Part shown: positions 31,533 through 54,513 of the stretch, in pieces
Layout of the letters: each line of letters starts with the position of its first letter
How positions within the stretch are numbered: the first letter of the stretch is position 1
From: Cnuella takakiae
GTDB lineage: Bacteria > Bacteroidota > Bacteroidia > Chitinophagales > Chitinophagaceae
Assembly: GCF_001953305.1 (NCBI RefSeq)
Contig: NZ_MTFE01000010.1
Location: 4,473,803-4,537,802, forward strand
DNA length: 64,000 nt
Direction of reading: 5' to 3'
Notes under the pieces: generated by a model
The model's input: the letters and a program-made list of their open reading frames with translations, nothing else
Databases searched by the model: none
Told to the model about the DNA's origin: nothing
Made by a program: the position numbers and the translations under genes

Positions 31533-32405
31533 CTATGTAGTTTCTGACGGAGGGCTTTGGGGTTCATACCAGGTGCCGATATCGCTCCAGCCAAAAGATC
31601 CAGGTATCACATAAATTTTTTCCGACTTACAAAAGGCCTCTGTATCAAAATTAGCAGCGGGGCTGGAGGCATAAGCAAGTTGTAAAGCAGCTTCTTCTGA
31701 TGCGCTGTTAAAAGAAAGGGCAGCGTTTTTAAAGCACCGGAACAAAGTGGGGAGCAGCCGCCTGATTGCGCCAAGCAGGTCGGTCACTTTCCAGATATAA
31801 ATGCCCGTATGCCATAAATACCGGTCCTCAGGGTGAAAAGAAGGGTACTGGACAGTAGTATGTTCCAGGAATTGTTCGACCCGGAACACTCCCTCATCCA
31901 CACATTTTGCACTCCTCTTGATGTACCGGTAATATTGGTTGACATGGGTGGGCTGAACGCCAAGCACAACCACCCCACCCCTGCTGTTTACAACGCCGAT
32001 GGCATGGCTGCAAACATGCAGGAATGCATGGTTTTGCAACACCAGGTGGTCGGCAGGGGCAACAATCAGGGAAACACCGGAATCCTGCTGCGGCAGTTTA
32101 AAAGCAAGATGGGCAAGAATCGCTGCAGGTGATTTACTGACCGGAACACCCATAACCTGGCCTGGATGAATTAAGGGCAACTGCTCCATTGCAAGTGCCC
32201 GGTATACTGCCGCGGTAACGATGATGATGTGCTCGGAAGGAACATGCGGAACAAACCGTTCAAAGGTCTGCTGAAGCAGGGTTTTTCCCGTACCCAAAAA
32301 ATCGGTGAAGGCTCTTGGCAGGAAGGTTTCTTCCGGCCCGCTGAGGGATGCTTCAAATCTGTGGGTGATAATGGCTACAAAAGTTTTATTAATCTGGAGG
32401 GACAT
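31533..32405 (-). CDS. Degenerate mannose-1-phosphate guanylyltransferase homologue
   Basis: The 290-residue product aligns by motif with ManC/GMP-type sugar nucleotidyltransferases: FLGTGKTLLQQTFERF (about 37-52), PADHLVLQNHAF (about 128-139), FHPEDRYLWHTGIYIWK (about 198-214) and FGWSDIGTWYE (about 276-286). The nucleotide-binding signature that should be near residue 8-25 (GGxGxRLWPxSRxxxPK) is replaced by ITHRFEASLSGPEETFLPR, without the Gly-rich loop, Arg or Lys. The protein also stops soon after GWSDIGTW, so the C-terminal 50-60 residues are missing. It is the last gene of the locus. It may be non-catalytic, regulatory or decaying, so GDP-mannose for gmd would have to come from elsewhere. 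Confidence 0.7.
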   Translation of the reverse strand: MSLQINKTFVAIITHRFEASLSGPEETFLPRAFTDFLGTGKTLLQQTFERFVPHVPSEHIIIVTAAVYRALAMEQLPLIHPGQVMGVPVSKSPAAILAHLAFKLPQQDSGVSLIVAPADHLVLQNHAFLHVCSHAIGVVNSRGGVVVLGVQPTHVNQYYRYIKRSAKCVDEGVFRVEQFLEHTTVQYPSFHPEDRYLWHTGIYIWKVTDLLGAIRRLLPTLFRCFKNAALSFNSASEEAALQLAYASSPAANFDTEAFCKSEKIYVIPGSFGWSDIGTWYEPQSPPSETT

Positions 32406-32451
32406 GGCATGTAGATCTAACTGATACAACTAAAGAGCAGACACCAAGCGG

Positions 32452-33021
32452 TCAGACTGATTTTACCTTCTGGTCCGGCACACGGGAGAAAAGGTAGATC
32501 AGGAGAAAAATAAACAGGTAAGTAATAACATTGAACGTTTCATGGTGATCCATAAACCTGTTTACCTGCCAGTTCTGGTGGAGGGCATACAGGAGCACGC
32601 AAATACGGATGCTGTTTAAAACAAAAAATCCTATTAGGCCTGCAAGGGTCCACATCATCATTTTGCGCAGGCCTACCCTGGAGGCCCAAACAAAGGCAAA
32701 CCAAAAACTCAGCACGCCAAACCCCAAACAGGCAAAATTTACATTAACCCAACTGCCATTATTGGTTTGCAGGGTTTTGAGGCCCTTGATTTCAGTAACC
32801 AACCCGAGCGTTGCCGAAGCTGCCTTTGCAGTATGCACAATGAGGGAGGTCCACCAGTTGATATAATTGAAGTGAAGATCGAGGAAGGAGCTATAAACGG
32901 TGCCATCGGGCGTGGTTAGGCCCCAATAGAAAAGATGGAAATAATATAGCACGGCAAAAAGCCCGAGGAACTTGAAGGTAAATGAAAGGTCAAGTGCGGT
33001 GGAAAGCTTTTTCAAATACAT
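32452..33021 (-). CDS. Exosortase/archaeosortase family cysteine protease-transpeptidase
   Basis: Exosortases are membrane enzymes that recognise a C-terminal sorting tail, cut it and probably attach the protein to another molecule; in bacteria they go with exopolysaccharide loci. The 189-residue product has about six membrane helices, and the expected catalytic triad is visible: Cys98 in NFACLGF, Arg139 in LNSIRI (NxxR), and His160 in MDHHETFN. The size fits the short Bacteroidota exosortases (XrtF/XrtY-like). Its likely substrate gene lies 204 bp upstream on the same strand. The exact Xrt subclass is not certain from sequence reading alone. Confidence 0.85.
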   Translation of the reverse strand: MYLKKLSTALDLSFTFKFLGLFAVLYYFHLFYWGLTTPDGTVYSSFLDLHFNYINWWTSLIVHTAKAASATLGLVTEIKGLKTLQTNNGSWVNVNFACLGFGVLSFWFAFVWASRVGLRKMMMWTLAGLIGFFVLNSIRICVLLYALHQNWQVNRFMDHHETFNVITYLFIFLLIYLFSRVPDQKVKSV

Positions 33022-33225
33022 GTATCGTGCAGGTTCTGGTAGGGGGAAAGAACAAGGCCGGCAGCAGAGCGCAAGCGGCCTTGTTTGAAAAGCAAAAGCA
33101 GGAATAAGCTGCTATGTCCATATCCATCGTCAGGCAGCAGGCCATCGGGCCACAACAGTCCAACAACAAAGAGCAGGAACTTCAGTTTTGTGCTTGTTTG
33201 TAGGTTCAGGCTTTACACTACAGCG

Positions 33226-33459
33226 CTAGTCTGCAGCGCCTTCCTGCAACTTTGCCTTTCTTTTGTCATAAGCTTTCTTGGCCCCGGCGCCAATGCCTGC
33301 AGCCAGCAACAACGACAAGCCGCCATCGATCGGCGCATCATGGCCATTGGCATTGCCATGGCTATTACCATTATTGCCTCGCTGTGCATGCACCATAGAA
33401 GGTGCAGAACAAAGGCTAGCCAATAAAACCATTGAAAAAAACATGGACTTTTTCTTCAT
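33226..33459 (-). CDS. PID-CTERM-type small exosortase substrate
   Basis: The 77-residue product has three parts: a signal peptide (MKKKSMFFSMVLLASLC..., cleavage near VHA-Q, residue 25), a short Gly/Asn/His linker (RGNNGNSHGNANGHD), and a C-terminal sorting signal made of the motif PIDGG (43-47), a hydrophobic stretch (LSLLLAAGIGAGA) and a basic tail (KKAYDKRKAK). This tripartite tail matches the PID-CTERM signal known in Bacteroidota. After removal of both ends only about 20 residues would remain. The ATG at 33459 is chosen because it starts the signal peptide; an upstream start at 33510 is rejected. The exosortase gene follows directly. Confidence 0.82.
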   Translation of the reverse strand: MKKKSMFFSMVLLASLCSAPSMVHAQRGNNGNSHGNANGHDAPIDGGLSLLLAAGIGAGAKKAYDKRKAKLQEGAAD

Positions 33460-33809: not shown

Positions 33810-35108
33810 TCAATTTAGCTCCAGCTGGTCGCGGGCCACAAGCACTACGCGTTCTTTTTCCGGGCTGGCAATCAGTTGCACCTGTGTAAAGTAGCGGTGC
33901 ATGATCCGATTCATGGTCAGGAACTCTTCAGCATAAAGGCGTGCATGTTGTTTTACCTTTTCGTACGGGTGTTCTATCAATTGATGAATTGCATCTACCA
34001 GTGCCTGCCCGTTCTCCGGCTCAATAGCTACGCCAATGCCGTTTTGCGACACAAGGCTATGCAGGCTGGAGTTGGCCGATGCGGTAACCAGTGCAAGACC
34101 ACCAACAGATAGTATGGAAGTAAGCTTTGATGGCATCACCAGATCATCAGCCTTAGCCTTCTGCAGCACCAGGTGCACATCTGCCATATTTAAAAACTCG
34201 TTGAAGCGCTCCTTTGGTTGTACCGGCATGAAATGCACATTGGACAGTCCTGCATCCGCGGCCATGGCCTTCAGCTTCTCTTTGTATGGTCCGGTACCAC
34301 AAATAACAAACTGCAGGTGCGGCCCATTTACCTGTCCTGCTATCTGTATGATGGATTCAAGTCCCTGCTTTTCGCCTACTGCGCCGGAGTACAGGATGAT
34401 CTTGTCTTTGGGCGAAAACCCGAATTCCTTTTTCAGCAATTCTTTGTTGGGAATCGGGAAAAAGAATTCCGTATCCACCCAGTTGGGAAAAAACAGGATC
34501 GGCTTACTGCACTTTTCTTCAATGCGTTGCATCATGCCATTGGAGATGCTGCTGACATGGTCGGCCCGGTGCAGGATAAATCGTTCAATGGCAAACATGA
34601 TGTTGAGCAACCACCGCGACTTGATCATACCCAGCTCTTTAGCCGCATCTATCTGCAGGTCCTGCACATGAAAGATCAGGGTTGCCTTTCTAACCCATTT
34701 GTACAACACACCCAGCAAACCCAATTGAAAAGGCGGCACTACGGTGATCACATAATCATACCGCTTGCCAAAAAGCAATACCAACAACTGCAGGAATGCA
34801 CTGATAAAAAAACTAAGGTCAGAGAGGATCCGCTTCATACCCGATGGCTGCCGGGACACATAGTGCGGACAGCGGTATACTTTTATCTTCTCGCCTTCAC
34901 TTATTCTTTCCTCGCGGCGAAACCAGGATGCTCCCAGGCCATAAGGCTCCTGCACTTTCCAGAAAGGGTAATAAGGATAGGTAGTAACCACGGCACATTC
35001 GTGACCCTGGCTGGCCAGCCAATCCAACATTTCGGCATTGTATTTACCAATACCGGTAGGCTCGGGAAAATAGTTTCCCCCGATAAGCAGAATTCTTGGT
35101 TTTCGCAT
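33810..35108 (-). CDS. WcaI-like glycosyltransferase (GT4)
   Basis: The 432-residue product has the N-terminal acceptor domain of WcaI-type transferases (RILLIGGNYFPEPTGIGKYNAEMLDWL, noted as residues 4-30, then VVTTYPYYPFWKV) and a GT-B donor domain with ILYSGAVGEKQGLESII (about 235-251), FVICGTGPYKEKL, VHFMPVQPKERFNEFLNMADVHLVLQ and MPSKLTSILSVGGLALVTA. It would transfer a sugar to the lipid-linked repeat unit at the cytoplasmic face of the inner membrane. An in-frame GTG precedes the ATG at 35108 by one codon; ATG is preferred. The subfamily is by motif only; donor and acceptor are unknown. Confidence 0.88.
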   Translation of the reverse strand: MRKPRILLIGGNYFPEPTGIGKYNAEMLDWLASQGHECAVVTTYPYYPFWKVQEPYGLGASWFRREERISEGEKIKVYRCPHYVSRQPSGMKRILSDLSFFISAFLQLLVLLFGKRYDYVITVVPPFQLGLLGVLYKWVRKATLIFHVQDLQIDAAKELGMIKSRWLLNIMFAIERFILHRADHVSSISNGMMQRIEEKCSKPILFFPNWVDTEFFFPIPNKELLKKEFGFSPKDKIILYSGAVGEKQGLESIIQIAGQVNGPHLQFVICGTGPYKEKLKAMAADAGLSNVHFMPVQPKERFNEFLNMADVHLVLQKAKADDLVMPSKLTSILSVGGLALVTASANSSLHSLVSQNGIGVAIEPENGQALVDAIHQLIEHPYEKVKQHARLYAEEFLTMNRIMHRYFTQVQLIASPEKERVVLVARDQLELN

Positions 35109-35551
35109 CACTTAGGAATTAATTAAATATTCAGGAGTTAAAGGCCCGTCAGGCAGGGAGCAGTAAGGCTATAGGGTACCAACAAAAATTGGATCGGGAA
35201 CAAGGGAGAATTGGCAAACGATGTTGTGATGGAAAGGGCAGTAAAGAACAGGTTCGTTGTAGTTAATAAACAGTACCACAACAGAAAATCATTATATAAA
35301 AACCAGGTAGGCAGCGGTAGTTAATACCATTGAAAAAAATGCATAGTTGCTACATCATGCAACTGCAACATGATGTAGACATTGCCGGCGATACTACTAG
35401 AAAGAAAACTTAATGAGGGCTTTGCTAACCCAGGAAACATGGGAGTTCTGCTAGCGGAAAAAGGCAATTCCGGTTTCTGGCTAACAATAGCTGAACACTA
35501 CTAAAAACAATACCTGATGGTACCAGCCAAGCCAGTTGCCTTTTACAAAAG
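35109..35551. other. Intergenic stretch with a perfect 10-bp hairpin
   Basis: There is no credible reading frame in this gap of about 440 bp upstream of the WcaI-like gene. CTACATCATG at 35350-35359 is perfectly complementary to CATGATGTAG at 35369-35378 (9-base loop), without a T tract. It could be the end of the SGNH transcript or an operator; the sequence does not decide. Confidence 0.45.
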
Positions 35552-36468
35552 TTACAGGATGGTATCTTTTAATATCCTGAATATATAGTCCTGCCCGGCA
35601 TCGTTTGGGTGGATAACATCCCGGTAAGCTGAAGCGGGCATTTCATAATCCAGCTCTTTAATGATGGGCAGGTTGTGCTGCTTACAAAAATTGATAATTT
35701 CGACACCCTGTGCATTGTATTTGCCAGCGATCCGCTCTTCTTTTTCGGCGTGCAGGTATACCAGGAGTGGAATATTGTGGCTGCGGCAAAAGGATAGAAA
35801 ATTGCCAAAACCGGAATTGAACACGGAGTTTCTTTCCTTTTTGTTAATGGCCAGCATTCGTTCAGGTGTTTCCGTCTTCTTATTGGTAGCTGGCATTAGA
35901 TAGCGGTCTACCAATTCCATAATGGCAAGCGGAAATTGTTTGGAGGAATAAGCTGGCAATACATCAACAGTAGGAACAAAGTTCATGTTGTCGTAAGCAT
36001 CATGTGAGCTTACCAGCAACAGGAATTTTTGTGCACCAAAGGTTCCATACTTTTCCAGGTAAGCATAACAATTATCCGGTCCCCAGGAACCATAGCTAAT
36101 GTTGAGCACCTTCACTGGCTTCCTGAATTTCCGGGACAGGTACCTGCTCAATTTTGTTGTAGCCAAACTATCCTGATCAGACTGGGTACCACCGTTGATA
36201 ACGGAATCACCAAACCCGGCCACAACGATTGAATCCCCGGCAGATACAGCTTCATTGCGCTGGGAAAAAGCATTGTAAATATCCGGTTGCCAAAACGTTT
36301 CCGGTCCTGGTTGGGCTGGGCAACATATTCAAAGTCCTTATCGGCCTGCGTCAGCACCGCATCACAAAAGCCAAACTTATAGCGAAGAACCCATTCAAGG
36401 GCAACTACACCCAGTAGTACGGCTACCCCCAAAAGCAGTAACCCCTTTTTATAATGCAACCTGATCAT
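35552..36468 (-). pseudogene. SGNH/GDSL-like hydrolase gene broken by a frameshift
   Basis: The N-terminal part (start ATG at 36468, MIRLHYKKGLLLLGVAVLLG membrane anchor, then PNQDRKRFGNRIF) and the C-terminal part (YNAFSQRNEAVSAGDSIVV, then GFGDSVINGG with the GDS nucleophile motif, and a C-terminal DVIHPNDAGQDYI with the Asp-x-x-His pair) lie in different minus-strand frames. Joining them across a short T run at about 36277-36279 by one added base restores one frame of roughly 305 residues. The intact protein would be a membrane-anchored SGNH hydrolase, a family that adds or removes acyl groups from polysaccharides. A sequencing error at the homopolymer is an alternative. Confidence 0.75.
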
Positions 36469-36751
36469 GTAATAGTAATTAAAACAAGTGATAAGCACAT
36501 CCCAGTAATGCTCCAAAGTTGTTGGACAGTGGGCCAAGGTCAAGGAACAATAGAAGGTATCATTTGCATGTGCTGCAGTAGCAGGAAAACACTTGGTATG
36601 AATAAAACCGAATTGAAAAAAGCCCAGAAATCATATAAGATTGAAGGTTCTCCATACATTAGGAAGCAATTCCAAAATGTTAGGATCGTCTTTGGTTTAC
36701 ATATCTTGGCCGGATATTAGAAATCGTACCATGCTGGAGTACCTAGAGGGC

Positions 36752-38365
36752 CTATGGCCTGAGTAAAGACTTACGGAGACTTATACTTACTCCGGTAGCA
36801 TTATTGAGCAGTTTACCAGAGTCATTAGCCAAAGAAAAATGAACACTGGTTTCCTTTTTCAGTTGACGACCCACATCGAAAAACACCGATACCTGATTTA
36901 CTTTTGGAAAAATGCCATCATACGGCACAAAAGGTCTTCTTTCACCATTGAACCAAAAAAAAGTGCTGTTACTGGTATAATAAGTTCCGTAATTCTGAGA
37001 ATAGGATAGTAATGCTTTGTAACGCCACTTCATCACACTACCAATGGCACCCATATGCACTAAAAAAAGTCTGTTATTTATAAAGAAATCAGCCGGGGAA
37101 GATGGGAGGCCTTTTCTGCTATATTTTTTCTCTGTAATAAAGGGTGAACCAATGCCGGTTTGTTTAAAACTATAACCTTCCGAATAGATACCATGATTGT
37201 AATATTGCTCAGGACCGGAAGGAGTTTCCTTAGACCATTGTTCACCGGCCTGGTTCTTAGTGTACACCACTTCAAGTAAGACCTTATTAAGCCGAACCTT
37301 GTGTTTATCTGACTCTCTGAATTCGACACTAAAGCCAGTCAATCCATCTGCTACATTGGCCAGGTAAGCCAAGGCACCTTTATCATAAATGAATTGTCGG
37401 TACACGGATATTCGGCCTTCATAAAAGTTAAAGTCAAATCCCATATCAAGGGTTCCGAGGTGGTTTCCTACTTTGGAAATGTTTTGGGATGCATTTTTGC
37501 TTCCACCAATCAATACCTGAATGATACTTTCAAAAGGTTTGAGATGGAACTCAGGTCCGAATATTTGCTTTTCATGGCCCCAGGTAACCTGGTGATTGAT
37601 GCCAGCAGTTAAAAATAGCCGGCCGTTTGGCTTACCCAAGCGGCCATATATTGCTTTGTGATGAAAATAGCTTTTTACGGAACTAACCCTTTCATACTGA
37701 TACGGATTATGAACATAGTTAACAGGGAGATCACCAATCCAGCCATGTTCGAAGCTGCCTTTAAAACTTATTAGCTTGCCTAAGAAAGGCAGGTGAACAA
37801 AATCGGGAATGGAAACCTGAATTGATGGAATAGGATTTGCATTTCCGGAAATAGCCAGCGACCCTGAAGACAAACTTGAATCAACCAGGCCTTTAAACTC
37901 GCGATACAACCCTGCCTTCAGTTGAAAAAGGCTCCATTTAGCTTTAGCGTATGCTTCCACTAGATGCAGTTCCTTTTGTGCACCCACATTGATGCGGGCC
38001 ATTACACCACCACCCCAGTCCACGCCTTTAATCTTAGTATACTCTCTATAAAGGTCCCCTATTATACTTAATGACTCATTCGGAACAGGAACATTGCCAC
38101 CTTTATTGGCGCGGAACCAAAAGGGAACAGCACCTTCCATATAGGTCAATTGTGTTTCTATTGCTGAACGCCATTTTTCAGGGAGTTCGGCAATATTGGT
38201 GTCTTGTATGTATTGCAACGATTTATCCTTACCAACCACTTGAGCAGCATCCGACCCTTTAATCATAAACCCCTCTGCTACTGGATAGTCATTCTGCTGT
38301 CCATTTACCTGAATACACACAACCAGTAAAAATCCCAGACCAGCACATGTTTTTCGAAAGGCCAT
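36752..38365 (-). CDS. Wzi-like capsule/exopolysaccharide assembly protein
   Basis: Wzi-type proteins are outer-membrane barrels that hold or organise the polysaccharide at the cell surface. The 537-residue product has a signal peptide from the ATG at 38365 (MAFRKTCAGLGFLLVVCIQVNGQ) and a short helical start (QDTNIAELPEKWRSAI), followed by many amphipathic beta segments with aromatic ends (WGGGVMARINVG, SLFQLKAGLYREF, FKGSFEHGWIGD, GRLFLTAGINHQVTWG). An upstream start at 38401 adds a Cys-rich tail and is rejected. The acetyltransferase gene upstream ends 41 bp before. Confidence 0.82.
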   Translation of the reverse strand: MAFRKTCAGLGFLLVVCIQVNGQQNDYPVAEGFMIKGSDAAQVVGKDKSLQYIQDTNIAELPEKWRSAIETQLTYMEGAVPFWFRANKGGNVPVPNESLSIIGDLYREYTKIKGVDWGGGVMARINVGAQKELHLVEAYAKAKWSLFQLKAGLYREFKGLVDSSLSSGSLAISGNANPIPSIQVSIPDFVHLPFLGKLISFKGSFEHGWIGDLPVNYVHNPYQYERVSSVKSYFHHKAIYGRLGKPNGRLFLTAGINHQVTWGHEKQIFGPEFHLKPFESIIQVLIGGSKNASQNISKVGNHLGTLDMGFDFNFYEGRISVYRQFIYDKGALAYLANVADGLTGFSVEFRESDKHKVRLNKVLLEVVYTKNQAGEQWSKETPSGPEQYYNHGIYSEGYSFKQTGIGSPFITEKKYSRKGLPSSPADFFINNRLFLVHMGAIGSVMKWRYKALLSYSQNYGTYYTSNSTFFWFNGERRPFVPYDGIFPKVNQVSVFFDVGRQLKKETSVHFSLANDSGKLLNNATGVSISLRKSLLRP

Positions 38366-38405
38366 AATAAAGCAATTACAGTATCTGCACCGTGAACACA
38401 ATCAT

Positions 38406-38990
38406 TTAAACCAGGGCAGGGTCTTTAAGCATGTAAGATTCTTCGGCAATCCGCTTTTTGATAGGTTGTGCTGGGCTTCCTATACATACCATTCCGCTAG
38501 GAAGATCTTTAAAAACGCTACTTCTTGCGCCTACAATTGATCCTCGACCAACGGTTACACCCGGTGCCAGATAAACATCGGTAGCAATCCAGCATTCATC
38601 CTCCACTACAATTGGCAATCCGTAAATAGGGAAATCCGGCTCCTTATAATTGTGTGTACCAGCGCACAAATAACTTTTTTGGGAGACCACCACATTATTT
38701 CCAATATGAATTTGATCCAGGCTGTATAAAACCACATCATCACCAATCCAAGTATTATCGCCAATGCTAACTTTCCAGGGGAACTGTGTCTTTACTGTAG
38801 GTCGCAGGATGACGTTACGCCCAACTTTAGCACCAAATAATCGTAGTAACAACCTACGCCATCCATACATAAATTGGGGGGAAGGCCGGAACAGCAACTG
38901 TTCGACAATCCACCACAACTGGACATACCAACCCGGCTTCCCTCGAAAACCTTGCGGCAGTTCGAAACTTTCCAAAGTTTGAAATTTCAT
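38406..38990 (-). CDS. WcaF-like hexapeptide acetyltransferase
   Basis: The 194-residue product is a left-handed beta-helix O-acetyltransferase: repeated hexapeptide turns run from about residue 60 (VGRNVILRPTVKTQFPWKVSIGDNTWIGDDVVLYS, noted by position only, with IHIGNNVVVSQ next), then the active-site loop with catalytic His in LCAGTHNYKEPDFPI (about 120-134), ECWIATDVYLAPGVTVGRG, and GSPAQPIKKR. It would acetylate a sugar of the repeat unit. The ATG at 38990 (MKFQTLESFELPQGFRGKP) is preferred to 39020 since the former gives the WcaF-type N-terminus. Confidence 0.9.
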   Translation of the reverse strand: MKFQTLESFELPQGFRGKPGWYVQLWWIVEQLLFRPSPQFMYGWRRLLLRLFGAKVGRNVILRPTVKTQFPWKVSIGDNTWIGDDVVLYSLDQIHIGNNVVVSQKSYLCAGTHNYKEPDFPIYGLPIVVEDECWIATDVYLAPGVTVGRGSIVGARSSVFKDLPSGMVCIGSPAQPIKKRIAEESYMLKDPALV

Positions 38991-39089
38991 CTTTGCATTA
39001 TACTTGAAGCCAAGTGGCACTATCTATAAGCTGGTAATTTCTGAAACTGAAACAAGAAGAGCAGCGTGTGCTGTCAAAATCCGTTCTCC

Positions 39090-40271
39090 CTAAAAGAGCG
39101 CTTGTTTCATTCTGTATGCAACAGGCTGCATAGAAAAATGGGTGTCAACACATGACCTTGCATTCTTTCCCATTACTTTTATTTGTTCAGGGGAAAGTGC
39201 AATCCATTGTTTGAATATGCGTTTAACTCCTTCTATTGTATCGGCTTCAACTAGACCAGCATCAGCAGCCTTTATTTCCTCCCATATATTAACCTGGTCA
39301 GAAATAAGTACCGGCTTGCCACAAGCCATTGCTTCAACAATGGAGATACCAAAATTTTCCTGGTGGCTGGGCAATACAAAAGCGGTACAGTCGTAAAAAG
39401 CGCCCCACTTGGCCTTTCCAAGCAGCAAACCAGGAAAATGCACTTGATGTTGTATCCCCAATTCATGCACCATTTCAAAAACCTTACTCCCAAAGGCAGA
39501 ATCCAAACCGGGACCTGCAACCACCAGATGCGGTAATTGCGCTGTATGCTGCAACGCATGGTGATAAGCATTTATCAATAACATCAAACCTTTCTTTTCA
39601 TGAATCCTGCTTAAGAACAAAAAGAATGGTTCGTTTTTCAAAGCAGGCACATGAGAACGGAAGGCTGTTATCATGTCTTTGCAGAGCGCCGGAGGTAAAT
39701 TAATGCCATAGCCTATATTATGCTCCTGTACTGGTTTGTAGGGCCGGAAAGGCTGCCTAGCCAGTTTCATTTCGGCCATACAGGTAAACAAAAGACCGTT
39801 AGCATTATTAATATTTTCACCTTCTATCAACTTGTAATACAACCAGTTTCGGATAGCTTTTACTCTTCTACCACTCGCCTTTTGAAAATAGGGATCCAGC
39901 ATACCGTGCGGCATGATAAATATCCTTGGTACTGCACCAGTACCACGCTCCTTTTTTAATACTTCCGCGGCTTTTCTAACTGCATACCCGGCATATTGCC
40001 ACATACCATGTACCACCACAACGTCGAAATGAGTCATGTTGGTAAGTAGCCATGGCAGAAGTGCTTTGCTGTAAGCCCAGGATGTTTTGCGGCCACCAAG
40101 TGCATGTATTTTAAAAACATCATTGCGCAGGTAATCAGCCCCAGGTTCATCAACACAAACAACCTCATTTAAAACATTCAAATTAGTCAGTTCCGGAATT
40201 GAATTTCGTAAGCCCTGACAGGTACCCCCATAAGCAGGGTCCATGGAACTAATAACATTCAATACTTTCAT
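39090..40271 (-). CDS. GT4 family glycosyltransferase
   Basis: The 393-residue product has the GT-B pattern of family 4: KVLNVISSMDPAYGGTCQGLRN at the start, FIMPHGMLDPYF (about 133-144), a C-terminal half with FFLFLSRIHEKKGLMLLINAYH (about 225-246), HLVVAGPGLDSAFG, VHFPGLLLGKAKWGAFYDCTAFVLPSHQENFGISIVEAMACGKPVL (noted by position, about 287-332) and the E-x7-E donor-site motif within it (ENFGISIVE). The start at 40271 begins the beta strand of the N-terminal fold. The sugar donor is not predictable. Confidence 0.9.
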   Translation of the reverse strand: MKVLNVISSMDPAYGGTCQGLRNSIPELTNLNVLNEVVCVDEPGADYLRNDVFKIHALGGRKTSWAYSKALLPWLLTNMTHFDVVVVHGMWQYAGYAVRKAAEVLKKERGTGAVPRIFIMPHGMLDPYFQKASGRRVKAIRNWLYYKLIEGENINNANGLLFTCMAEMKLARQPFRPYKPVQEHNIGYGINLPPALCKDMITAFRSHVPALKNEPFFLFLSRIHEKKGLMLLINAYHHALQHTAQLPHLVVAGPGLDSAFGSKVFEMVHELGIQHQVHFPGLLLGKAKWGAFYDCTAFVLPSHQENFGISIVEAMACGKPVLISDQVNIWEEIKAADAGLVEADTIEGVKRIFKQWIALSPEQIKVMGKNARSCVDTHFSMQPVAYRMKQALF

Positions 40272-40358
40272 ATTCCTATCAATTTTGACAGCCTTCAACT
40301 AAACAGTAGCGTGGGAAGATTTTGGAAAGGTGTGAAAGCTAAAAAGATGAGTAAAAGC

Positions 40359-40619
40359 TTATCCTTTATTGGAATGCTCTAAAATGCTGTGATAAATAGT
40401 CTCTAATTTATCTAATGTCACTTGCAGATTGAACCGATCGGAGTTCCTACGACCCCTTTGAACATACAGCGCACGTTCATAATCTGATAGTCGAACAATT
40501 TTATGTACCACTTCAGCAGCATGACAAGCCCAGAAATCAGCTGATCCCAGTACAGAAGGGCGCCGGGGATAAAAAAAAGCGGCTTCTCCGTCACCCCAGG
40601 CCATTGTAGCTTGCCTCAC
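40359..40619 (-). pseudogene. C-terminal remnant of a glycosyltransferase
   Basis: The 86 codons read GEAAFFYPRRP followed by LSDYERALYVQRGRRNSDRFNLQVTLDKLETIYHSIL (named by position, about residues 43-80), which is the C-terminal tail of a GT4 transferase. More than 250 N-terminal residues that should precede it are absent; upstream bases (40620-40709) are non-coding. It starts at a GTG without merit. It looks like a leftover from a deletion or replacement in the locus. Confidence 0.75.
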
Positions 40620-40709
40620 AAAGGATTAAAAAAATGGACCGAAATAACAAACTAAATGTGATTGCATCTCATCAAAAACAGAATTGCAATTCAGCATAAC
40701 CGGGTGAGA

Positions 40710-41879
40710 TCAGGTACGGACCAGATTTTTCAGTTCTTTTACAATAACAGAGTAATCGTACCTTCTGATGATTTGGCGGGAAGTTGTGCTCCAGTTTAGC
40801 CGCTTATCAATCAATACCTGCCGTAGCGTTCTTGTTAAAGCTTCCACATTCCCGGTAGGAAATACATAGCCGTTTACTCCAGGCTCGACCAAGTCAGCCG
40901 AACACCCCGTTAAGTCCGAAACTATCACCGGCAAGTCAAAGTTCATTGCCTCGTTTACAGATAATCCCCAAGTTTCCCCTATTGTGGAGCACATAACAAA
41001 GACATCACCGATTGCATAATAGGCTGGAATCTCAGATTGATTGACAAAGCCGGTCAAAACAACATTTTGAACTTTATGCTTAAGGATGAACTGTTCGATT
41101 TCAATCCTTAGTTCTCCTTCGCCAATCATGATCAACCAGCAGTTCGGATGGTTCAACTTAGAAAAGGCCTGCATCAGATCAAGAGGCCGCTTTTTATCAA
41201 TGTATTTACCTGAAAAAAGAATTACCTGGGCATTATTTGGGATACCAAACCTGGAACGTATTTCCAACCTTTGACCGGCGATTCGTTCAAATGCTTCTAA
41301 AAAGCGGCTATTGTCTACAGCATAGGGGCAAAATACCAGCTGCTCTTCTGGTATGCCGTAATTTTTATAAAGTTGATGATTTTCTTTGCCGATATACAGA
41401 AAGTAGTTTACCCTGGGAAAAACTACATGCTTCAACAGCATGCGTCTTAGCTTTTGCTTTTTTGATTTCTTCAATTGCTCCTGACTGTTGGGCACTTCAA
41501 AACGAAGACAAACTGTATGTCCGGCAAGTTGAGCCAGAAGTAAGATGCACAGGTGTGTAAAGAAGTGATATCCATGGACAACAAGAATGGATTTTGGCTG
41601 GCGAAATAAGGTGATCAACATACCAAAGTTGACCAAACTGAAAAACCCGACAGACAGAGAAGGTCTAGCAGCATAATTTTTGAAAAACCGGTAATCATAG
41701 CCATCCAGCAATGGAATGTCCCATTTGACTCTGACGCCGAACTCCTTATCAACAGCACCATGAAGCATACCTTCGGTACAATACCACACCTTTGTTTGCA
41801 ATCCTTGCTCGTTCATGTACTTATACAGTGGAGCGAAATACTGTATGGGATGGGAATTTACGAAAATGATTTCCTTCAT
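40710..41879 (-). CDS. GT4 family glycosyltransferase
   Basis: The 389-residue product starts MKEIIFVNSHPIQYFAPLYKYM, a form seen in transferases of exopolysaccharide loci. It carries the GT4 donor-domain motifs VILFSGKYIDKKRPLDLMQAF (about 207-227), WLIMIGEGELRIEIE, VLTGFVNQSEIPAYY, and the E-x7-E block STIGETWGLSVNEAMNFDLPVIVSD (noted by position, about 296-320). Its ATG overlaps the stop of the preceding gene by 4 bases (ATGA), so the two are translationally coupled. Confidence 0.9.
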   Translation of the reverse strand: MKEIIFVNSHPIQYFAPLYKYMNEQGLQTKVWYCTEGMLHGAVDKEFGVRVKWDIPLLDGYDYRFFKNYAARPSLSVGFFSLVNFGMLITLFRQPKSILVVHGYHFFTHLCILLLAQLAGHTVCLRFEVPNSQEQLKKSKKQKLRRMLLKHVVFPRVNYFLYIGKENHQLYKNYGIPEEQLVFCPYAVDNSRFLEAFERIAGQRLEIRSRFGIPNNAQVILFSGKYIDKKRPLDLMQAFSKLNHPNCWLIMIGEGELRIEIEQFILKHKVQNVVLTGFVNQSEIPAYYAIGDVFVMCSTIGETWGLSVNEAMNFDLPVIVSDLTGCSADLVEPGVNGYVFPTGNVEALTRTLRQVLIDKRLNWSTTSRQIIRRYDYSVIVKELKNLVRT

Positions 41880-42952
41880 TTAATTACTGGGTTGTAAGCC
41901 GTTTGATCCACTTTACTGAATATTGCCTGAATGACTTTCTTGCAAACCTCTTCATTGCCAACGCCTAAAGAAATAACACGATCAAAGCCAGCTTTACGGA
42001 TCCGCTCCCTTAAGGTATCATCACCTAACAACTGCTTACAAACTGCTGCACATTCAGATGCATCTTCCCAAAACACAGCTTCCTCACCTTCCAAATACAT
42101 AGCATTATGTTCGGTTGTTCTTTTGGCACAAAACAACCCGCCTGCATAAGGAATTTCTAAAGATCGCTGAGTGTGCAAATCACGATTGCCCTTCGACAAC
42201 ATTCCAATACATATTTTAGAACTCCGGATTGCGGCAACATAGTCTCTTCCATATATTGACTTGCCACGAATGCATGGCTTTAATTGCATATAATATTTGC
42301 TCTTGTGCCAGCCATTTCCCCAAATGCTTAAAGGAATATTTTGTTTAATGAGTTCAATCAAGAATTCATCTCTTCCTTCATGCGGCATCCAGGTTCCAAT
42401 GAAAGCAACTTCCGATTGAAAAGCTAATAATGCATTCAAATCCAGATTATCACTCGAATGGGCAACTTCATCATAACTTCTAAACACCCTAAGCACTTTC
42501 CTCGCACCAAGTTCATAACACTCACGCTCGGTTTCATTTCGCACAACAACAATCAAATCATAAAAGGGCATTGATTTCTTAAGCGAATCAAACCTTTTGC
42601 CATCTCTTGAACCAGTTGGATCATCAACATTGTACAAAACCAATTTGGATGTTAGAGATTTAATCAACTTCAAACTCTTAACACCAAACAATTCACCACT
42701 ATCAATCCATACTAAATCATAGTTTGATGTATTACAAAGGTTTTCTTGCACCCATTTCACCACCGCTCTTTGTAACCACACAAAACCAGTTTTGTAGTGA
42801 AATGCCCCAGAAAATTTCCCATTTAAGGAGCTATTTAATCCAACATAAGGATTTTGGATAGACACCGAATGGCCAAGACGCTCCAGTGCCTTAGCTCTAT
42901 GCGCAGAAGTAGATCCGGTATTATCATCACCTATGTACAATATAGTTGCCAT
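41876..42952 (-). CDS. CgeB-like glycosyltransferase (GT-B fold)
   Basis: The 358-residue product begins MATILYIGDDNTGSTSAHRAKALERLGHSV (noted as positions 1-30), a start seen in CgeB/DUF3880-type GT-B proteins. VLYNVDDPTGSRDG near 107-120, VAFIGTWMPHEGRDEFL near 186-202, LSIWGNGWHKSKYYMQL near 212-228 and SLEIPYAGGLFCAKRTTEHNAMYLEGEEAVFW (noted by position, about 270-301) form the family's C-terminal domain. It probably adds a sugar to the repeat unit. It shares a 4-base ATGA overlap with the next gene. Its AT-rich composition differs from flanking genes. Confidence 0.82.
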   Translation of the reverse strand: MATILYIGDDNTGSTSAHRAKALERLGHSVSIQNPYVGLNSSLNGKFSGAFHYKTGFVWLQRAVVKWVQENLCNTSNYDLVWIDSGELFGVKSLKLIKSLTSKLVLYNVDDPTGSRDGKRFDSLKKSMPFYDLIVVVRNETERECYELGARKVLRVFRSYDEVAHSSDNLDLNALLAFQSEVAFIGTWMPHEGRDEFLIELIKQNIPLSIWGNGWHKSKYYMQLKPCIRGKSIYGRDYVAAIRSSKICIGMLSKGNRDLHTQRSLEIPYAGGLFCAKRTTEHNAMYLEGEEAVFWEDASECAAVCKQLLGDDTLRERIRKAGFDRVISLGVGNEEVCKKVIQAIFSKVDQTAYNPVIK

Positions 42953-43110
42953 AATTAAAATATTATTTACCGCTTTTTACAGACGCGGAGAAATAAAATG
43001 GTCGATAAAAATTTGCAAAACTCCATTTAAGTGTAAGTAAGAAAATACAAGCACCTGCGACACATTTCCAAGGTGAAGAATCCACTTCCACAACAAGCAA
43101 AAACAATAAA

Positions 43111-44331
43111 TTAAATGAATTTGGAAGAAGGTGTTCCGATAGGCAATGTCGTTGTATTCAACTTTCCTTTATTCACAACTTTTAGATAAATAGATTCAAA
43201 GTCATCAATGATTACTTTTGAACTAAATCTCATACAATTCTGGTAGCCATTTAGCAAATGAGCCTCACGCTCCAATGCAGAGCAATTCAACACCTTACTG
43301 ATTACTTCAGCCGAAATGGAAGCCCATTGATCTTGTAAACTCTTTTCGAGAGGTTTTCTCGGAATATAGAAGGCAGCACTACCTCCCACTTCATTCATTG
43401 GCGCTTCACCTGTTGTAACTACAGGGCATCCACACTCCATTGCTTCAATAATGGGCCAACCAAACCCTTCTGCATAGGAAGGAAACAAAAGCAAGCTAGC
43501 CCCACAATAAGCTTTATTTACTTCTTCATCGGGCAAACCAGTCACAAAATGTATATCAGCTTTATATTTAGAAATTTCTTTCTTTTCCAGCAAGCATTTG
43601 CTGGGCTGCTCACCTACAAGTATTAAAGGCAACCTATTATCAGAATTAGCACGCCAAGATTCATAAATCTCGATAACTCCTTCTCTATTTTTATACCACA
43701 GATTTCCACCGACATGGAGCATATATCCGGCCTTTAAATTGACACCGATATAATTCGATAACTGGAACCTTGCTTCTTCAACTTTAAATTTTATAAGGGG
43801 CCTGTTCTGTGTATTATAAACCACCTCACTTACTACTACCTCTTTGTTGATAAAATAATGCAAATCATGTTTTGTCTTTAAAGAAGCTGAGATAAAGTAT
43901 TGCGCTTGTGAGTACCCCCATCTTATCAACCTTTGATACAATCTACCACTCCATCCAGTTGTATACTGTTCAATTTTGCCGACTGCTGATAACTGAGCTA
44001 AAAAATCGTGGCAATGAACTATATGTGGAAGCTTTCTGACCATTGGAACCCAGGGACCTAAAGCGTGATCAGTAATAACAAAAAGAGTATTCTCCGGAAA
44101 GCTTCGACGGCGCCTTAGGAATTGGACAGGAAAAATCAAGAATTGATCAATATAGCCCAACCACTTACCCAAAAACTTGTTGTTACCAGACAATTTAAAA
44201 AAAAGGGGTTTGGGAACTAAAATTTCTATTGTATGCCCTTTACGCTGCATGCCATTGGCAAGCATATTAAGATACCGCGGCATACTTTGGTGATTCAAAA
44301 ACAAAGGGTGGCTAAAGAAAACAATGTTCAC
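43111..44331 (-). CDS. GT4 family glycosyltransferase
   Basis: A GTG at 44331 starts the fold directly (VNIVFFSHPLFLNHQSMPRYLNML); the reading frame is open to a TTG at 44370 but the extra residues look non-native. The 406-residue product has VHCHDFLAQLSAVGKI (about 117-132), GYMLHVGGNLWYKNREGVIEIYE (about 210-232), LILVGEQPSK, and VNKAYCGASLLLFPSYAEGFGWPIIEAMECGCPVVTT (noted by position, about 285-321) with the E-x7-E motif EGFGWPIIE. Strongly AT-rich. It is likely to act on the nascent repeat unit. Confidence 0.88.
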   Translation of the reverse strand: MNIVFFSHPLFLNHQSMPRYLNMLANGMQRKGHTIEILVPKPLFFKLSGNNKFLGKWLGYIDQFLIFPVQFLRRRRSFPENTLFVITDHALGPWVPMVRKLPHIVHCHDFLAQLSAVGKIEQYTTGWSGRLYQRLIRWGYSQAQYFISASLKTKHDLHYFINKEVVVSEVVYNTQNRPLIKFKVEEARFQLSNYIGVNLKAGYMLHVGGNLWYKNREGVIEIYESWRANSDNRLPLILVGEQPSKCLLEKKEISKYKADIHFVTGLPDEEVNKAYCGASLLLFPSYAEGFGWPIIEAMECGCPVVTTGEAPMNEVGGSAAFYIPRKPLEKSLQDQWASISAEVISKVLNCSALEREAHLLNGYQNCMRFSSKVIIDDFESIYLKVVNKGKLNTTTLPIGTPSSKFI

Positions 44332-44651
44332 AGGAAGGTTTGACAAATTGATGTTAAGAAATAAATCCAACAGGGGAATACTTGCATTTGAAATGCTTTA
44401 TTTCTTTCTGGGATGAAGTTCAAACTATAATTACCTAGCTTCGCCCTACAAGAACATTCAACTACAAGTTTTTTCTTTGGCTCAATTATATGTTGACATT
44501 TTTTTTAAAGTAGCAAGAGCTATGTTATTAATGAGGTCATAAGCAGCCAAACATTTACCAACAACAACAAATTCAGGGTAAACACTAAAAACAAGCATGT
44601 GGTACTTTTTGGTTCAAACGCTATACCCAATGTCCAGATTTAGTTGAAGCA
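44332..44651. other. AT-rich intergenic stretch
   Basis: This gap of about 320 bp between the Wzy-like gene and the GT4 gene has no reading frame of note, no T-tract hairpin and no TAnnTTTG element I can support. Short poly-A/T runs are scattered through it. I see nothing else in it. Confidence 0.4.
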
Positions 44652-46316
44652 TTATCCGTTTTGAGCTAGCGAATACTTACCATGGTAATTTATATATCCT
44701 CTTTTTATGAACAAAGAAGATATTATTAGCGTGAATTGAAAAATCACAAAGTAAAGCAGCACTGTTTGCGGCCACTCCCTTAAGGTAAAAACCACAGCAT
44801 TGATAACACTTTCTGTAGGCAAAAACGAAAATGTCGAAGTGATTGAGAGGAGGCCACATAAACTAAATTTAAAGCTAGATGCAGTACCCTTGCCTAACAC
44901 CAAAACAAAAGCATCAACAAGATAATAGACAGGAATGATTGAAATGCCCAAGACTAGTAAGTACCACCATCCGAATGTAGCCATTCCTGTTCCACAGAAA
45001 TGACCTGTACGAAACCAACCCATCGCATAAGGATCACCTGTTGTAATATAGTATAGGTAATCACCTATTGAAGAAGATACTATCTCCTCCTTTTTCACAT
45101 CAATATTTAAAAGTTTCAATACAGGGCTAGGAAAAGAACTATAGAACCTGTTAACAGAAAATTCAAACATTTTAGGGTTACCCGCTCCCATTCCTCTTGC
45201 CTGGATAAGGCTTAAATCATTAAACTTGAGGTTACAAAAGCGTGCGAGAAATATATTATCAAGGTAGTTTTCATCCCAATCTGGATTTGTTACCTTAGCT
45301 AACTTTTTGTATTCGGCAATCGCTCTTGAATCTTCGTAAACTTCCAAGGTTTTGGAAATAAGTGCAACCCTAGAGACATCTTCTCTAGCACCTCTAACCA
45401 TTACCATAGCAACGCCAATATCCTGAATTGGTCCAGTAAAGAGCCATAAAGCAGCCCCGAACCCAACAATTATTTTGAGATTGATCTTGGGCATTTGAAA
45501 TCGCTTCAGCAAATAACCCAAGATAAAGGAGTACCCCAAAGCTGTAAAACTGTACATAAACGCTCCACGGCTATTTGCACCAATACTTACAACAAAAATT
45601 AGCATTCCATAAAAAAGCAGTTGAAATTTCAACCTTTTGGAAACGATCTGAACCTTACCAAACAACAAGGAGAATGGTATAAAGAATGGCGCATAGGCGA
45701 ATGGTATAAAACTTCTAATGATATTGTTTCCTGTTTCCTTTTCATCATATGAAGTAGAGGTGAAGAAATGGATAAAAAACATCGAAAAAAGACCCAAAAA
45801 ACCCATGAACCATATCTGGAAGTTATTTGGTGCAACAAAAAACTTAAGTCGTTGTAACACTTGCTGTGCCGCTGTTAAACTCCGGTTGCTGGAACTTGCC
45901 TTTCTTCGATATAAAAGATGAGCAATCAATAAAATAATCAAGGAAAATAAAGCATGCAAAAAGACCTCATTTGGCAATTCAAGGTTATGAATCAAACTTT
46001 TCCCTTCAATTGACATAAAAACTACTGGAAAGTAAATTTGAGTAAGAGCATAACCCAAAATTAAAAAAGTTGAAAAAGGATGCCGCGCAAACGAATTCGT
46101 AAGAAAGAGTGCTTTTACAACGAGCGCCCACCCTACTACCACACATGATAACGCAAAAATGTTTTTCATGTCGGTATGAACTAACACTTGATAACCAACC
46201 GCAATCAGCATAATCAACCAAGAAAAATCAATCATTCTACCATAGGTTTTCTTTGCATCCGCCTTATTTGAATAATTGGTTAACTGACTGTTCTGTACTT
46301 GCTTGTTCACCTTCAT
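44652..46316 (-). CDS. Wzy-like polysaccharide polymerase (O-antigen polymerase type)
   Basis: The 554-residue protein has at least eleven membrane helices with a larger extracytoplasmic loop at about 330-420, the topology of Wzy polymerases, which link repeat units in the periplasm. Helices include MIDFSWLIMLIAVGYQVLV, FALSCVVVGWALVVKAL, FLHALFSLIILLIAHLLY, QIWFMGFLGLFSMFFIHFF and WWYLLVLGISIIPVYYLVDAFVLVL. Sequence identity between Wzy proteins is low, so the call rests on topology and position between glycosyltransferases. It may belong to the Wzy-like proteins found with Bacteroidota exosortases, but I cannot confirm that from reading. Confidence 0.78.
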   Translation of the reverse strand: MKVNKQVQNSQLTNYSNKADAKKTYGRMIDFSWLIMLIAVGYQVLVHTDMKNIFALSCVVVGWALVVKALFLTNSFARHPFSTFLILGYALTQIYFPVVFMSIEGKSLIHNLELPNEVFLHALFSLIILLIAHLLYRRKASSSNRSLTAAQQVLQRLKFFVAPNNFQIWFMGFLGLFSMFFIHFFTSTSYDEKETGNNIIRSFIPFAYAPFFIPFSLLFGKVQIVSKRLKFQLLFYGMLIFVVSIGANSRGAFMYSFTALGYSFILGYLLKRFQMPKINLKIIVGFGAALWLFTGPIQDIGVAMVMVRGAREDVSRVALISKTLEVYEDSRAIAEYKKLAKVTNPDWDENYLDNIFLARFCNLKFNDLSLIQARGMGAGNPKMFEFSVNRFYSSFPSPVLKLLNIDVKKEEIVSSSIGDYLYYITTGDPYAMGWFRTGHFCGTGMATFGWWYLLVLGISIIPVYYLVDAFVLVLGKGTASSFKFSLCGLLSITSTFSFLPTESVINAVVFTLREWPQTVLLYFVIFQFTLIISSLFIKRGYINYHGKYSLAQNG

Positions 46317-46391
46317 AATAAGGTTTATTGTTGTCCTGCAGTTACTATACTAGAATGAGAAAGGCACATCATGAATAGATTCCTATAACTC

Positions 46392-47441
46392 TTAATGTGC
46401 TTGACTCATCTTCAATACTGCAGCATGAACTTTGCTTTTAAGGATTTCTTCTTGATGCTGCTCCATTTTTCGATGCAGGTATTTGGCCGAGAGCATCAAA
46501 CCAAACTTTCCGCCAGCAGAAATAATAAATACACACCATTTCAAAATCCTTGACAGCATAAACTCTGAGTCCTGATGTGCTTGTAAGAAAAGATAGTATG
46601 CTGGCCGACCTTTCAAGAGGTATTTTAGCCCAATTTGTCTGTAGTATGAATCATAACTGAGTGTCGCATGCAATTTTAAAAAGAATAATAATGAAGGATA
46701 TTTTTCTTTTAATTTCAAGTAAAGCCAAAGGATGATTTTTTCTTTTTCGGCAATCTCCTCACCTTTTACATTCAAATAAACAGATGCAGTGTTCGCATGT
46801 CTGCGTATATGGGTTAGAACATTCTTAAGTACTCCCATGCCAAAATTTTCCGATGCCCTAGCCCAAAATTCATAATCAAGGGCACTTCTAAAATCGGTGG
46901 CAAAAAAGCCACAACTATCCAGTATACTGGTCCGTAAAGAAACATTAGACAGATTTCCTGGAATATTTCCAAACAAGAAAAAATGTTCACAACTTGAACC
47001 GACTGGATAAAAATCCAGCAAGCATTTCCGTTCAAACCTCATAAGGGAACTATGTGCTCCTTCATTTAGTGCAAATGCAAAACCTAAGTCACTTGGAGCT
47101 GACTGCCAATAAGCCAAAATAGTCGAAAGGCTGGCTTCATTTATAAAGTAATCATCAGCGCAAAGTATCTGACAAATAGGCGCTTTTGCCCTTTTAAAAA
47201 GAAAGTTCAGATTTCCGGAAATACCTAAATTACTTTCATGATTGAAGATGCTTACCCGGCAATCACTTAAGGATGCCAGGTACTCTCTTGTTCCGTCAGT
47301 TGAACCATTGTCGCCAATTAAAACCTCCCACTGAGCAGAGGTTTGACGAAATACGGACTCCAAGCATTCTTTGATAAAAGGCAGTCCATTGCGAACGGGA
47401 ATAATAATTGATATTTCAGGGCAGGAATAAGATTGCATCAT
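46392..47441 (-). CDS. GT2 family glycosyltransferase
   Basis: The 349-residue product has the GT-A fold: PEISIIIPVRNGLPFIKECLES (about 8-29), WEVLIGDNGSTDGTREYLAS (about 37-56, containing the first Asp), SNLGISGNLNFLFKRAKAPICQILCADDYFI (noted by position, about 69-99, with the D-x-D-like ADD). A helical C-terminal segment follows. The neighbouring gene on the same strand (47479) is a close relative with the same layout, so the pair looks like a duplication. Confidence 0.9.
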   Translation of the reverse strand: MMQSYSCPEISIIIPVRNGLPFIKECLESVFRQTSAQWEVLIGDNGSTDGTREYLASLSDCRVSIFNHESNLGISGNLNFLFKRAKAPICQILCADDYFINEASLSTILAYWQSAPSDLGFAFALNEGAHSSLMRFERKCLLDFYPVGSSCEHFFLFGNIPGNLSNVSLRTSILDSCGFFATDFRSALDYEFWARASENFGMGVLKNVLTHIRRHANTASVYLNVKGEEIAEKEKIILWLYLKLKEKYPSLLFFLKLHATLSYDSYYRQIGLKYLLKGRPAYYLFLQAHQDSEFMLSRILKWCVFIISAGGKFGLMLSAKYLHRKMEQHQEEILKSKVHAAVLKMSQAH

Positions 47442-47478
47442 GCTGATGATGAATTAGGGTATTATCTAAAAGTTTTCA

Positions 47479-48471
47479 CTATATGGCATTTGAACCAACC
47501 TGAAAAGCCTGCAACAAACGCTTGGCAGAATAAACCCGGCCGATTCTCCCACCCAATGAAATAAAGAAAATGGCCCATTTAAAATTTTTACGAATACACT
47601 CGCTATGTGCAGCGTGTTTGTTCACCTCCTTTAAATATTCCTTATTTCCTTTTAGTAAAAATTTTACAGCTAAGTACCTATCCAGGGCATCATACTGAAG
47701 CGTTCCATGAAATTTCAGTCTTCGCATCAGATGCGGGTGTGACGCTATAAGGCCACGGTACATCTTATTGGCAATCTTAATTTTTTGTTCCACCAGTTCA
47801 CCTTTTAAGTTCAGGTAATTGGAAGCCTGATTTTTATGAACTCTTACTTGAACGATCACTTCACTCTGTACACCCACATCGTATTTTTTGGAGGCACGGT
47901 GCCAAAATTCGAAATCTCCTGCAAACGGAAGCGATTGATCAAACATGCCGACACTGCTTACTACCCTGGTGCGTAAGGATACATTTGAAAGATTGCCCGG
48001 AAAGTTTCCAAAAACATAAAACCATAGATCAGCATGACCCGCCTTTATAGTTTTAGGCAGTACCTTCTTTTCATATTTGACTAGCCGGTTTGAATCACTT
48101 TCATTCTGATGATTGAACCGCACAAAACCCAAAGCAGAATCGGCTTTTTCCCAAAAATTCAGCAGTATGTTCAAAGAGCGGGCAGATACAAAGAAATCAT
48201 CCTGGCAGAGAATCTGGGAAACTGGAGCTTGTGCTTTTGAAAATAAAAAATTAAGGTTATTGAAAATACCCAGGTTCTGTTCCTGCTCAAAAACTCAAAT
48301 TCTAGGATCATTTATTGATCTCAGGTATGCCCTTGACCCATCGGTTGACCCATCATCACTTATCAATAATTCCCAGGTACTTATCTCCTGTTTCAGAATA
48401 GATTCTATACAGTCCTCCAAATAAGGCATTCCATTGTATACAATGGTTATAATTGAAATAGTTGGAAACAT
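47479..48471 (-). pseudogene. GT2 glycosyltransferase gene interrupted by an in-frame TGA
   Basis: Reading the minus strand from the ATG at 48471 gives a normal GT2 start (PTISIITIVYNGMPYLEDC, then WELLISDDGSTDGSRAYL). The codon at 48297-48295 is TGA where the family has a residue such as Arg (ATT-TGA-GTT-TTT). After it the same frame continues intact (EQEQNLGIFNNLNFLF, ILCQDDFFVSA) to the stop at 47479. The full frame would be 330 residues, like the sister gene 46392-47441. A single base change (CGA to TGA) explains the stop. Either a point mutation or a sequencing error is possible. Confidence 0.85.
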
Positions 48472-48477
48472 ATTAAT

Positions 48478-50001: not shown

Positions 50002-50164
50002 ATGCTAAACCACCTTTTCACAATCCTTTTGAACTTAAAGGGATATTCACAATTTCTCGCTGCTTCAAACCTCTAAATCCCGTTTAATAACGCAGCTATC
50101 ATGATCCCGCACCGAATTGTTCCTTTAATACCGGCCGGTAATTATAACAACCATAACCTTTAAC

Positions 50165-54493: not shown

Positions 54494-54513
54494 AAAGGGT
54501 AAAGGCTGGTATT

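Follow-up and report, generated by a model that had tools for sequence, protein, structure and literature searches.

A divergent XrtY-like exosortase and its tiny putative PID-CTERM substrate in a polysaccharide setting of Cnuella takakiae

A 64-kb stretch of the Cnuella takakiae genome, to which as a whole we refer as the window, contains a real and well-formed exosortase/substrate pair, a divergent XrtY-like variant in which the enzyme is accompanied by a solo and very small PID-CTERM protein. Directly visible are the two genes, the conserved residues of the enzyme, the family of the substrate tail, the co-occurrence of both families across genomes, the one-to-one number and the adjacency of the genes in C. 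takakiae, together with the polysaccharide setting. The pair represents a solo variant within a wider system: the majority of the PID-CTERM genes that we examined accompany cargo genes of the type IX secretion system (T9SS). This association is a more surprising result than the pair itself, and the mostly cargo-adjacent position of PID-CTERM genes hints that two systems of protein sorting are connected.

The exosortase and its putative substrate

We used profile searches to classify the 189-residue protein encoded at 32452..33021 (this and all other window features given here lie on the minus strand), which a first-pass annotation had read as an exosortase. That reading was borne out by a score of 31.8 bits against the superfamily model TIGR04178 (cut-off 23). 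The best-scoring specific model is exosortase Y (XrtY, NF046083), with 120.7 bits against a cut-off of 160; the scores for XrtX (NF046081; 37.4 bits, cut-off 170) and XrtF (TIGR04128; 29 bits, cut-off 90) are lower. Pfam gave nothing for the protein up to E 1, and no relative was found among solved structures, the best hit there (E 0.023) being an unrelated surface-layer protein. A simple hydropathy scan alone indicates four clear membrane segments. A plasmid search returned zero matches at E 1e-5, and promoter and terminator scans at the locus stayed at chance level.

The catalytic triad proposed for the enzyme, Cys98, Arg139 and His160, stands up to comparison with relatives. Cys98, the presumed nucleophile (codon 32728..32730), and Arg139 (codon 32605..32607), both with verified codons, are each conserved in 91/91 of the relatives that have a residue in those alignment columns. 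His160 (codon 32542..32544) is kept in 36/36 XrtY-like and 5/5 canonical XrtY rows and is invariant in a separate alignment (39/39 rows). XrtX-like rows keep the neighbouring His159 instead (47/47), a residue that is absent from 5/36 XrtY-like rows. Judged from these alignments, the window protein carries the conserved Cys, Arg and His of the exosortase/archaeosortase superfamily.

A midpoint-rooted tree of 90 proteins divides into two sides with 100/99 support each. The side that includes the window protein has 40 rows, 35 XrtY-like and five canonical XrtY, the latter from another family; the other side comprises 46 XrtX-like and four further proteins. The closest row to the window exosortase is 41% identical. 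With the root at the midpoint, the enzyme is placed with canonical XrtY and against XrtX. We name it XrtY-like rather than XrtY because its score is under the XrtY cut-off, although it falls within the XrtY side of the tree. The same holds more widely in its family: among 147 genomes, the XrtY model matched in 52 and the XrtX model in 53, with neither cut-off reached anywhere, and the scores fall into two groups. Scores above the XrtY cut-off were found in 5/247 genomes of the phylum sample, all from family f3, and in 0/147 of the window's own family.

The small gene (33226..33459, with its ATG start at 33459) encodes a 77-residue PID-CTERM precursor, a putative exosortase substrate. The first-pass annotation had described a same-strand upstream gene with a PIDGG-hydrophobic-basic tail, and the PID_CTERM model (NF046080) recognizes this tail with 37.2 bits (cut-off 26) over residues 43-66 of 77; a 94-residue form of the protein scores 36.6 bits. 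A likely signal peptide spans residues 1-25 (33385..33459), with hydrophobic residues at 5-19 and a probable cleavage site, judged by eye, after VHA. It is followed by a 17-residue stretch rich in Asn, Gly and His (33334..33384), which would be set free or handed on, and by the tail (33229..33333) with its PIDGG motif, hydrophobic helix and Lys/Arg-rich end. The small size is typical: 74 distinct PID-CTERM-like proteins have a median length of 69 residues, and the linker between signal peptide and tail has a median of 15 residues (71/74 measurable), by hydropathy rules and rough rules for starts and cleavage sites that place several of the 74 visibly off. Two genes at other loci (L104:8955-9332 and L107:8855-9433) carry long Asp/Asn-rich repeats, possibly calcium-binding, ahead of the PID-CTERM tail. 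At contig ends, PID-CTERM genes with equal coordinates and scores occur in two genomes (G044:C4:68-142 and G044:C180:68-142; G250:C3:13-87 and G250:C9:13-87), which suggests repeated copies that break assemblies.

With regard to the earlier remark that the working of this short Bacteroidota version was not described, the families concerned, XrtX, XrtY and PID_CTERM, are already in NCBIfam and so known to a database, though a literature search, mostly outside subscription journals, found no paper on them. The window pair shares with exosortase Y/PID-CTERM its best exosortase model, its clade and its tail family, and differs in that the enzyme scores 40 bits below the XrtY cut-off. Exosortase X belongs to the same superfamily, and genomes with XrtX-like enzymes only also have PID-CTERM genes, but XrtX forms the separate, 100/99-supported clade, and the window protein reaches only 37 bits of its cut-off of 170.

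The general model of exosortase substrates and polysaccharide loci is that of PEP-CTERM and EpsH (XrtA; PMC1569441), as set out in the accessible text of that paper. Signal peptide (a likely one in the window precursor), motif-helix-basic tail, Cys/Arg/His enzyme and polysaccharide locus are common to both systems. There, however, up to 65 PEP-CTERM proteins occur per genome (PMC1569441), whereas the C. takakiae genome has two PID_CTERM sites and two enzymes, one substrate per enzyme, and the window substrate has only 77 residues; EpsH has eight membrane segments (PMC1569441), compared with the four clear by hydropathy in the 189-residue window enzyme. XrtF of Flavobacterium johnsoniae is likewise a Bacteroidota exosortase, although the window protein reaches only 29 bits of the TIGR04128 cut-off of 90. 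Its deletion harms colonization and biofilm formation, and the accessible part of that study leaves its substrates to future work (PMC10936215). For archaeosortase A of Haloferax volcanii, a thioester and a transfer to lipid have been proposed (PMC7157517, from the text available), which resembles the mechanism considered here; that enzyme is archaeal and acts on the S-layer glycoprotein.

Genomic setting and co-occurrence

The exosortase and PID-CTERM genes are 204 nt apart, with the PID-CTERM gene upstream. Starting 22 nt past the exosortase stop is a sugar nucleotidyltransferase gene (31533..32429), with a match to PF00483 above cut-off and a likeness to mannose-1-phosphate guanylyltransferase (TIGR01479, 105 bits, below the cut-off of 373). 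The gene upstream of the PID-CTERM gene encodes a glycosyltransferase, and profile matches from Pfam and NCBIfam across 33810..56736 identify glycosyltransferases, a Wzi-like protein, a WcaF-family acetyltransferase, a GDP-mannose dehydratase, an UpxY antiterminator, a Wzc-like kinase and an export-protein-like gene. The product of the last (54514-55290) is under every NCBIfam cut-off, and 55558-56736 has no profile match. Polysaccharide genes flank the pair on both sides, in agreement with the polysaccharide locus first described. At 35552-36543, two ORFs overlap in different frames; the longer one weakly matches GDSL/SGNH lipases, and together they resemble a single gene that is apparently frameshifted.

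The C. takakiae genome encodes two exosortases, found by protein search and also with the XrtY and XrtX models, which are 34% identical over the matched part, and PID_CTERM exceeds its cut-off at two sites. In both pairs the PID-CTERM gene is directly upstream of the exosortase gene on the same strand, and the second pair borders an apparent group of polysaccharide genes, an assignment made from the ORF list rather than from profiles. We also used the glycosyltransferases, kinase, export protein and Wzi of the window as queries in the neighbourhoods of other exosortases. Relatives were present within about 10 kb at 15/34 other XrtY-like loci, 4/5 canonical XrtY loci, 7/47 XrtX-like loci and 1/20 control regions; these counts are minimum values, since this approach missed even the second pair of the window genome. 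Among 35 XrtY-like loci, no conserved neighbour other than the exosortase occurs in more than 12, and that top family consists of glycosyltransferases.

Across genomes, the two families go together, a co-occurrence that the first-pass annotation had proposed to look for in Chitinophagaceae. In the 147 family genomes, both were found in 48, PID-CTERM only in five, an exosortase only in four and neither in 90 (Fisher p 4e-28). The corresponding numbers for 247 genomes of the phylum are 42, 0, 31 and 174 (p 7e-28), all 42 PID-CTERM genomes falling within the 73 that have an XrtY-model match. The tables were compared by hand and the tests treat genomes as independent, just as paralogues and related genomes enter all our counts as independent. 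In two genomes (G061 and G143) an XrtY-like gene occurs and PID matches are absent at E 0.01. Five family genomes have PID matches and no exosortase-model match (G001, G017, G024, G046 and G092); two of the five are incomplete (79% and 60%), and two have weak PID matches only.

Adjacency is less regular than co-occurrence. A PID-CTERM-like gene lies within about 500 bp of 13/35 XrtY-like and 13/47 XrtX-like genes, tails being counted from 8 bits with a custom model so that weak ones are included (L098 13.8, L105 12.0 and L124 15.9 bits), and a profile search of genome contigs placed a PID gene within the same distance of 4/43 loci, three of these four apparently again in survey genomes. The closest enzyme found belongs to Segetibacter aerophilus (L223) and has a PID gene as its neighbour. 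We rejected the notion of an adjacent substrate for each XrtY-like gene, since 22/35 and 39/43 have no PID neighbour. As a correction to the first-pass annotation, adjacency is a minority arrangement; both pairs of this genome show it. Three metagenome records labelled Williamsia or Streptomyces griseus (L222, L224 and L258) carry XrtY-like loci, which are otherwise from Chitinophagaceae, and are probably mislabelled bins.

PID-CTERM genes and T9SS cargo genes

The family has at least 148 PID sites; 133 were covered, 118 of them with at least 700 nt of upstream sequence. (Among 79 of the sites, six were too near the contig start and the rest made up 69 merged regions, the nine lowest-scoring being left out.) Among the matches listed, 94/118 sites are directly 3' of a same-strand gene with a T9SS sorting domain, in 35/42 genomes. 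The domain was present in only 2/340 control genes (two to three over model iterations) and on the downstream side of 3/118 PID sites. The controls came from 20 regions hand-picked in survey genomes, one of which (L219) is short and itself holds a PID site; it supplied 5/340 control genes and neither of the positives. Because the custom T9SS model used for these counts was trained on one cluster near exosortases and then iterated, a count with TIGR04183 is the safer figure: at E 0.01 this model matched 89/104 distinct upstream ORFs, chosen without the custom model as the longest same-strand ORF of at least 140 residues ending within 700 nt upstream of each site (again among the matches listed, with 11/118 sites having no upstream ORF of 140 residues). 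On full-length examples of the cargo proteins, TIGR04183 was over its cut-off in 6/7, the seventh scoring 19.7 bits of 23.

The two genes are close together. Among the matches listed, 80/96 gaps, a set that includes sites with shorter upstream sequence, are below 100 nt and 24 are negative, as measured to the open-frame start of the small ORF rather than to its start codon. In ten of the cargo proteins, Pfam found no common domain except the sorting tail, which was matched in 8/10 at E 0.001 and over the Pfam cut-off in four. At one locus (L082:6532-16898), three cargo genes are each followed by a tiny PID-CTERM gene, the third weak, and an exosortase gene comes after the first.

We extended the comparison to the phylum with one locus each for 30/42 PID genomes. 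There was room upstream at 29, of which the custom model matched 22 and TIGR04183 one more. Outside the window's family, 22/28 sites are cargo-linked, with 18/20 in family f23 and 4/8 in five other families; both sites of family f5 are negative for upstream cargo. Two families thus show the pattern strongly, and it is less certain in the others. A literature search for a T9SS–PID link, which would miss reports under other wording, found none.

Both pairs of the window genome belong to the rarer, solo class, with no cargo gene upstream. An exosortase lies within 1.2 kb of 10/94 cargo-linked and 13/24 solo PID sites (p 1.4e-5, among the matches listed). For the 93/94 cargo-linked and 22/24 solo sites where the linker could be measured, as it could in all but three proteins, the solo class has longer linkers with more Asn and His (p 2e-4), and the linkers of the cargo-linked class contain more Pro, Asp and Glu (p 0.0014), both among the matches listed. 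The window genome has 40 TIGR04183 matches. Neither TIGR04183 nor the custom model found a sorting domain within the 64-kb window, and 30/40 cargo genes were inspected without any small ORF with the motif and tail appearing behind them. Elsewhere, cargo-linked PID genes occur, among the matches listed, in 9/10 genomes with XrtY-like enzymes only, 14/19 with XrtX-like enzymes only and 10/11 with both, so that either exosortase clade may serve them; they are also present in 2/2 genomes without an exosortase match (G017 and G024).

Some XrtX-like loci contain T9SS components. The order porU, porV, ispF, xrtX, with gldJ diverging, was found in 4/47 (L129, L132, L141 and L143), and at a fifth (L116) porV precedes ispF and xrtX, two small ORFs lying in between. 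These names come from NCBIfam for PorU and GldJ on L129 (GldJ below cut-off) and for PorV and IspF on L116, and from sequence clustering for the others. In F. johnsoniae, deletions of xrtF, Fjoh_1449, porU and porZ share an identical phenotype row in Table 2 of PMC10936215, whose accessible text draws no exosortase–T9SS link itself. The match is weak support for such a link, because the Fjoh_0334 and Fjoh_0651 mutants share the row too.

Possible roles of the pair

We consider it probable that the two genes specify a dedicated exosortase and its tiny substrate, which would be exported and cut near PIDGG, its peptide being passed to an acceptor that is likely saccharide- or lipid-linked. The 77-residue precursor would be exported by Sec, lose its signal peptide and remain anchored in the inner membrane by the helix at its C-terminus, the PID motif lying on the outer side. 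Its tail would then dock in the exosortase, where Cys98, of the triad with Arg139 and His160, would attack near PIDGG and the enzyme would hold the short Asn/Gly/His-rich peptide as a thioester. The peptide would subsequently pass to an acceptor, which the adjoining polysaccharide pathway would most likely provide as a saccharide or a lipid-linked intermediate. We infer that the small protein is cut by the window exosortase, and we take cutting, thioester and transfer from the exosortase/archaeosortase model. The identity of the acceptor is a guess. A glycan is the natural one because polysaccharide genes adjoin; counting against it, EpsH disruption in Methylobacillus left polysaccharide production itself unaffected, according to the accessible text of PMC1569441. 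Given so short a peptide, a folded protein is an improbable product; the peptide would instead serve as a tag attached to a glycan or lipid, or as a short linker.

Several observations weigh against this explanation: the missed XrtY cut-off, the lack of a PID neighbour at most XrtY-like genes and of any PID match in G061 and G143, the five family genomes with PID matches and no exosortase-model match, and the four clear membrane segments compared with eight in EpsH. The chief alternative, which we regard as possible though somewhat doubtful, is that the PID-CTERM/exosortase system is in origin a T9SS accessory in which each tiny protein serves the upstream cargo. Processing would then make a peptide-bearing component for attachment of cargo to the surface, and the window pair would serve unlinked T9SS cargo rather than polysaccharide. 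The high frequency of cargo linkage in the family (94/118 sites among the matches listed against 2/340 controls; 89/104 with TIGR04183) and outside it (22/28), the porU-porV-ispF-xrtX order at four XrtX-like loci and porV-ispF-xrtX at a fifth, the 40 TIGR04183 matches of the window genome and the shared phenotype row of the xrtF, Fjoh_1449, porU and porZ deletions (PMC10936215, as far as its accessible text goes) all speak for such an origin. However, neither pair of the window genome has an upstream cargo gene, 0/40 TIGR04183 matches fall within the window and none of the 30/40 inspected has a PID-type small ORF behind it. The solo peptides also differ in composition from the cargo-linked ones, cargo-linked PID genes occur in two genomes (G017 and G024) where no exosortase was matched, and outside the window's family the pattern depends mainly on one family (18/20, against 4/8 in five others).

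The remaining alternatives concern the small protein itself. It might stay uncut and act as a small membrane subunit or regulator whose helix binds the exosortase or the machinery for polysaccharide; proteins with so little outside the membrane (a median of 15 residues in the 71/74 measurable) would suit such a role, which is nevertheless improbable given that motif, helix and basic end form the known layout of an exosortase substrate (described in the available text of PMC1569441) and that the catalytic residues of the enzyme are kept in all relatives with those columns. That the genes are chance neighbours or mis-called ORFs could be argued from the mere 77 residues of the small ORF and from the 204-nt gap. 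We give this almost no credence: both proteins score over the general cut-offs, two such pairs are present in the genome, and the strong co-occurrence refutes the idea in practice.

More speculatively, and with rather low confidence, XrtX and XrtY of Bacteroidota would be second sortases working with T9SS. Every cargo of this type would be produced along with a tiny PID-CTERM precursor, which the exosortase would convert into a peptide joined to an anchor molecule, and this product would allow the cargo to be fixed on the cell surface or released from it. The solo pairs, the window pair among them, would be a branch redirected to polysaccharide. A Bacteroidota exosortase pair of one enzyme and one 77-residue substrate is close to the smallest conceivable test system, and the position of PID-CTERM genes behind T9SS cargo genes, which ties two surface-sorting systems together, predicts T9SS-type defects in exosortase mutants.

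A membrane protein of about 137 residues follows the xrtX-like gene at one locus (L105:10227-10628), and relatives of it occur in 21/47 XrtX-like loci. The L105 protein has no NCBIfam match above a cut-off, and it may resemble the XrtF-associated protein of F. johnsoniae.
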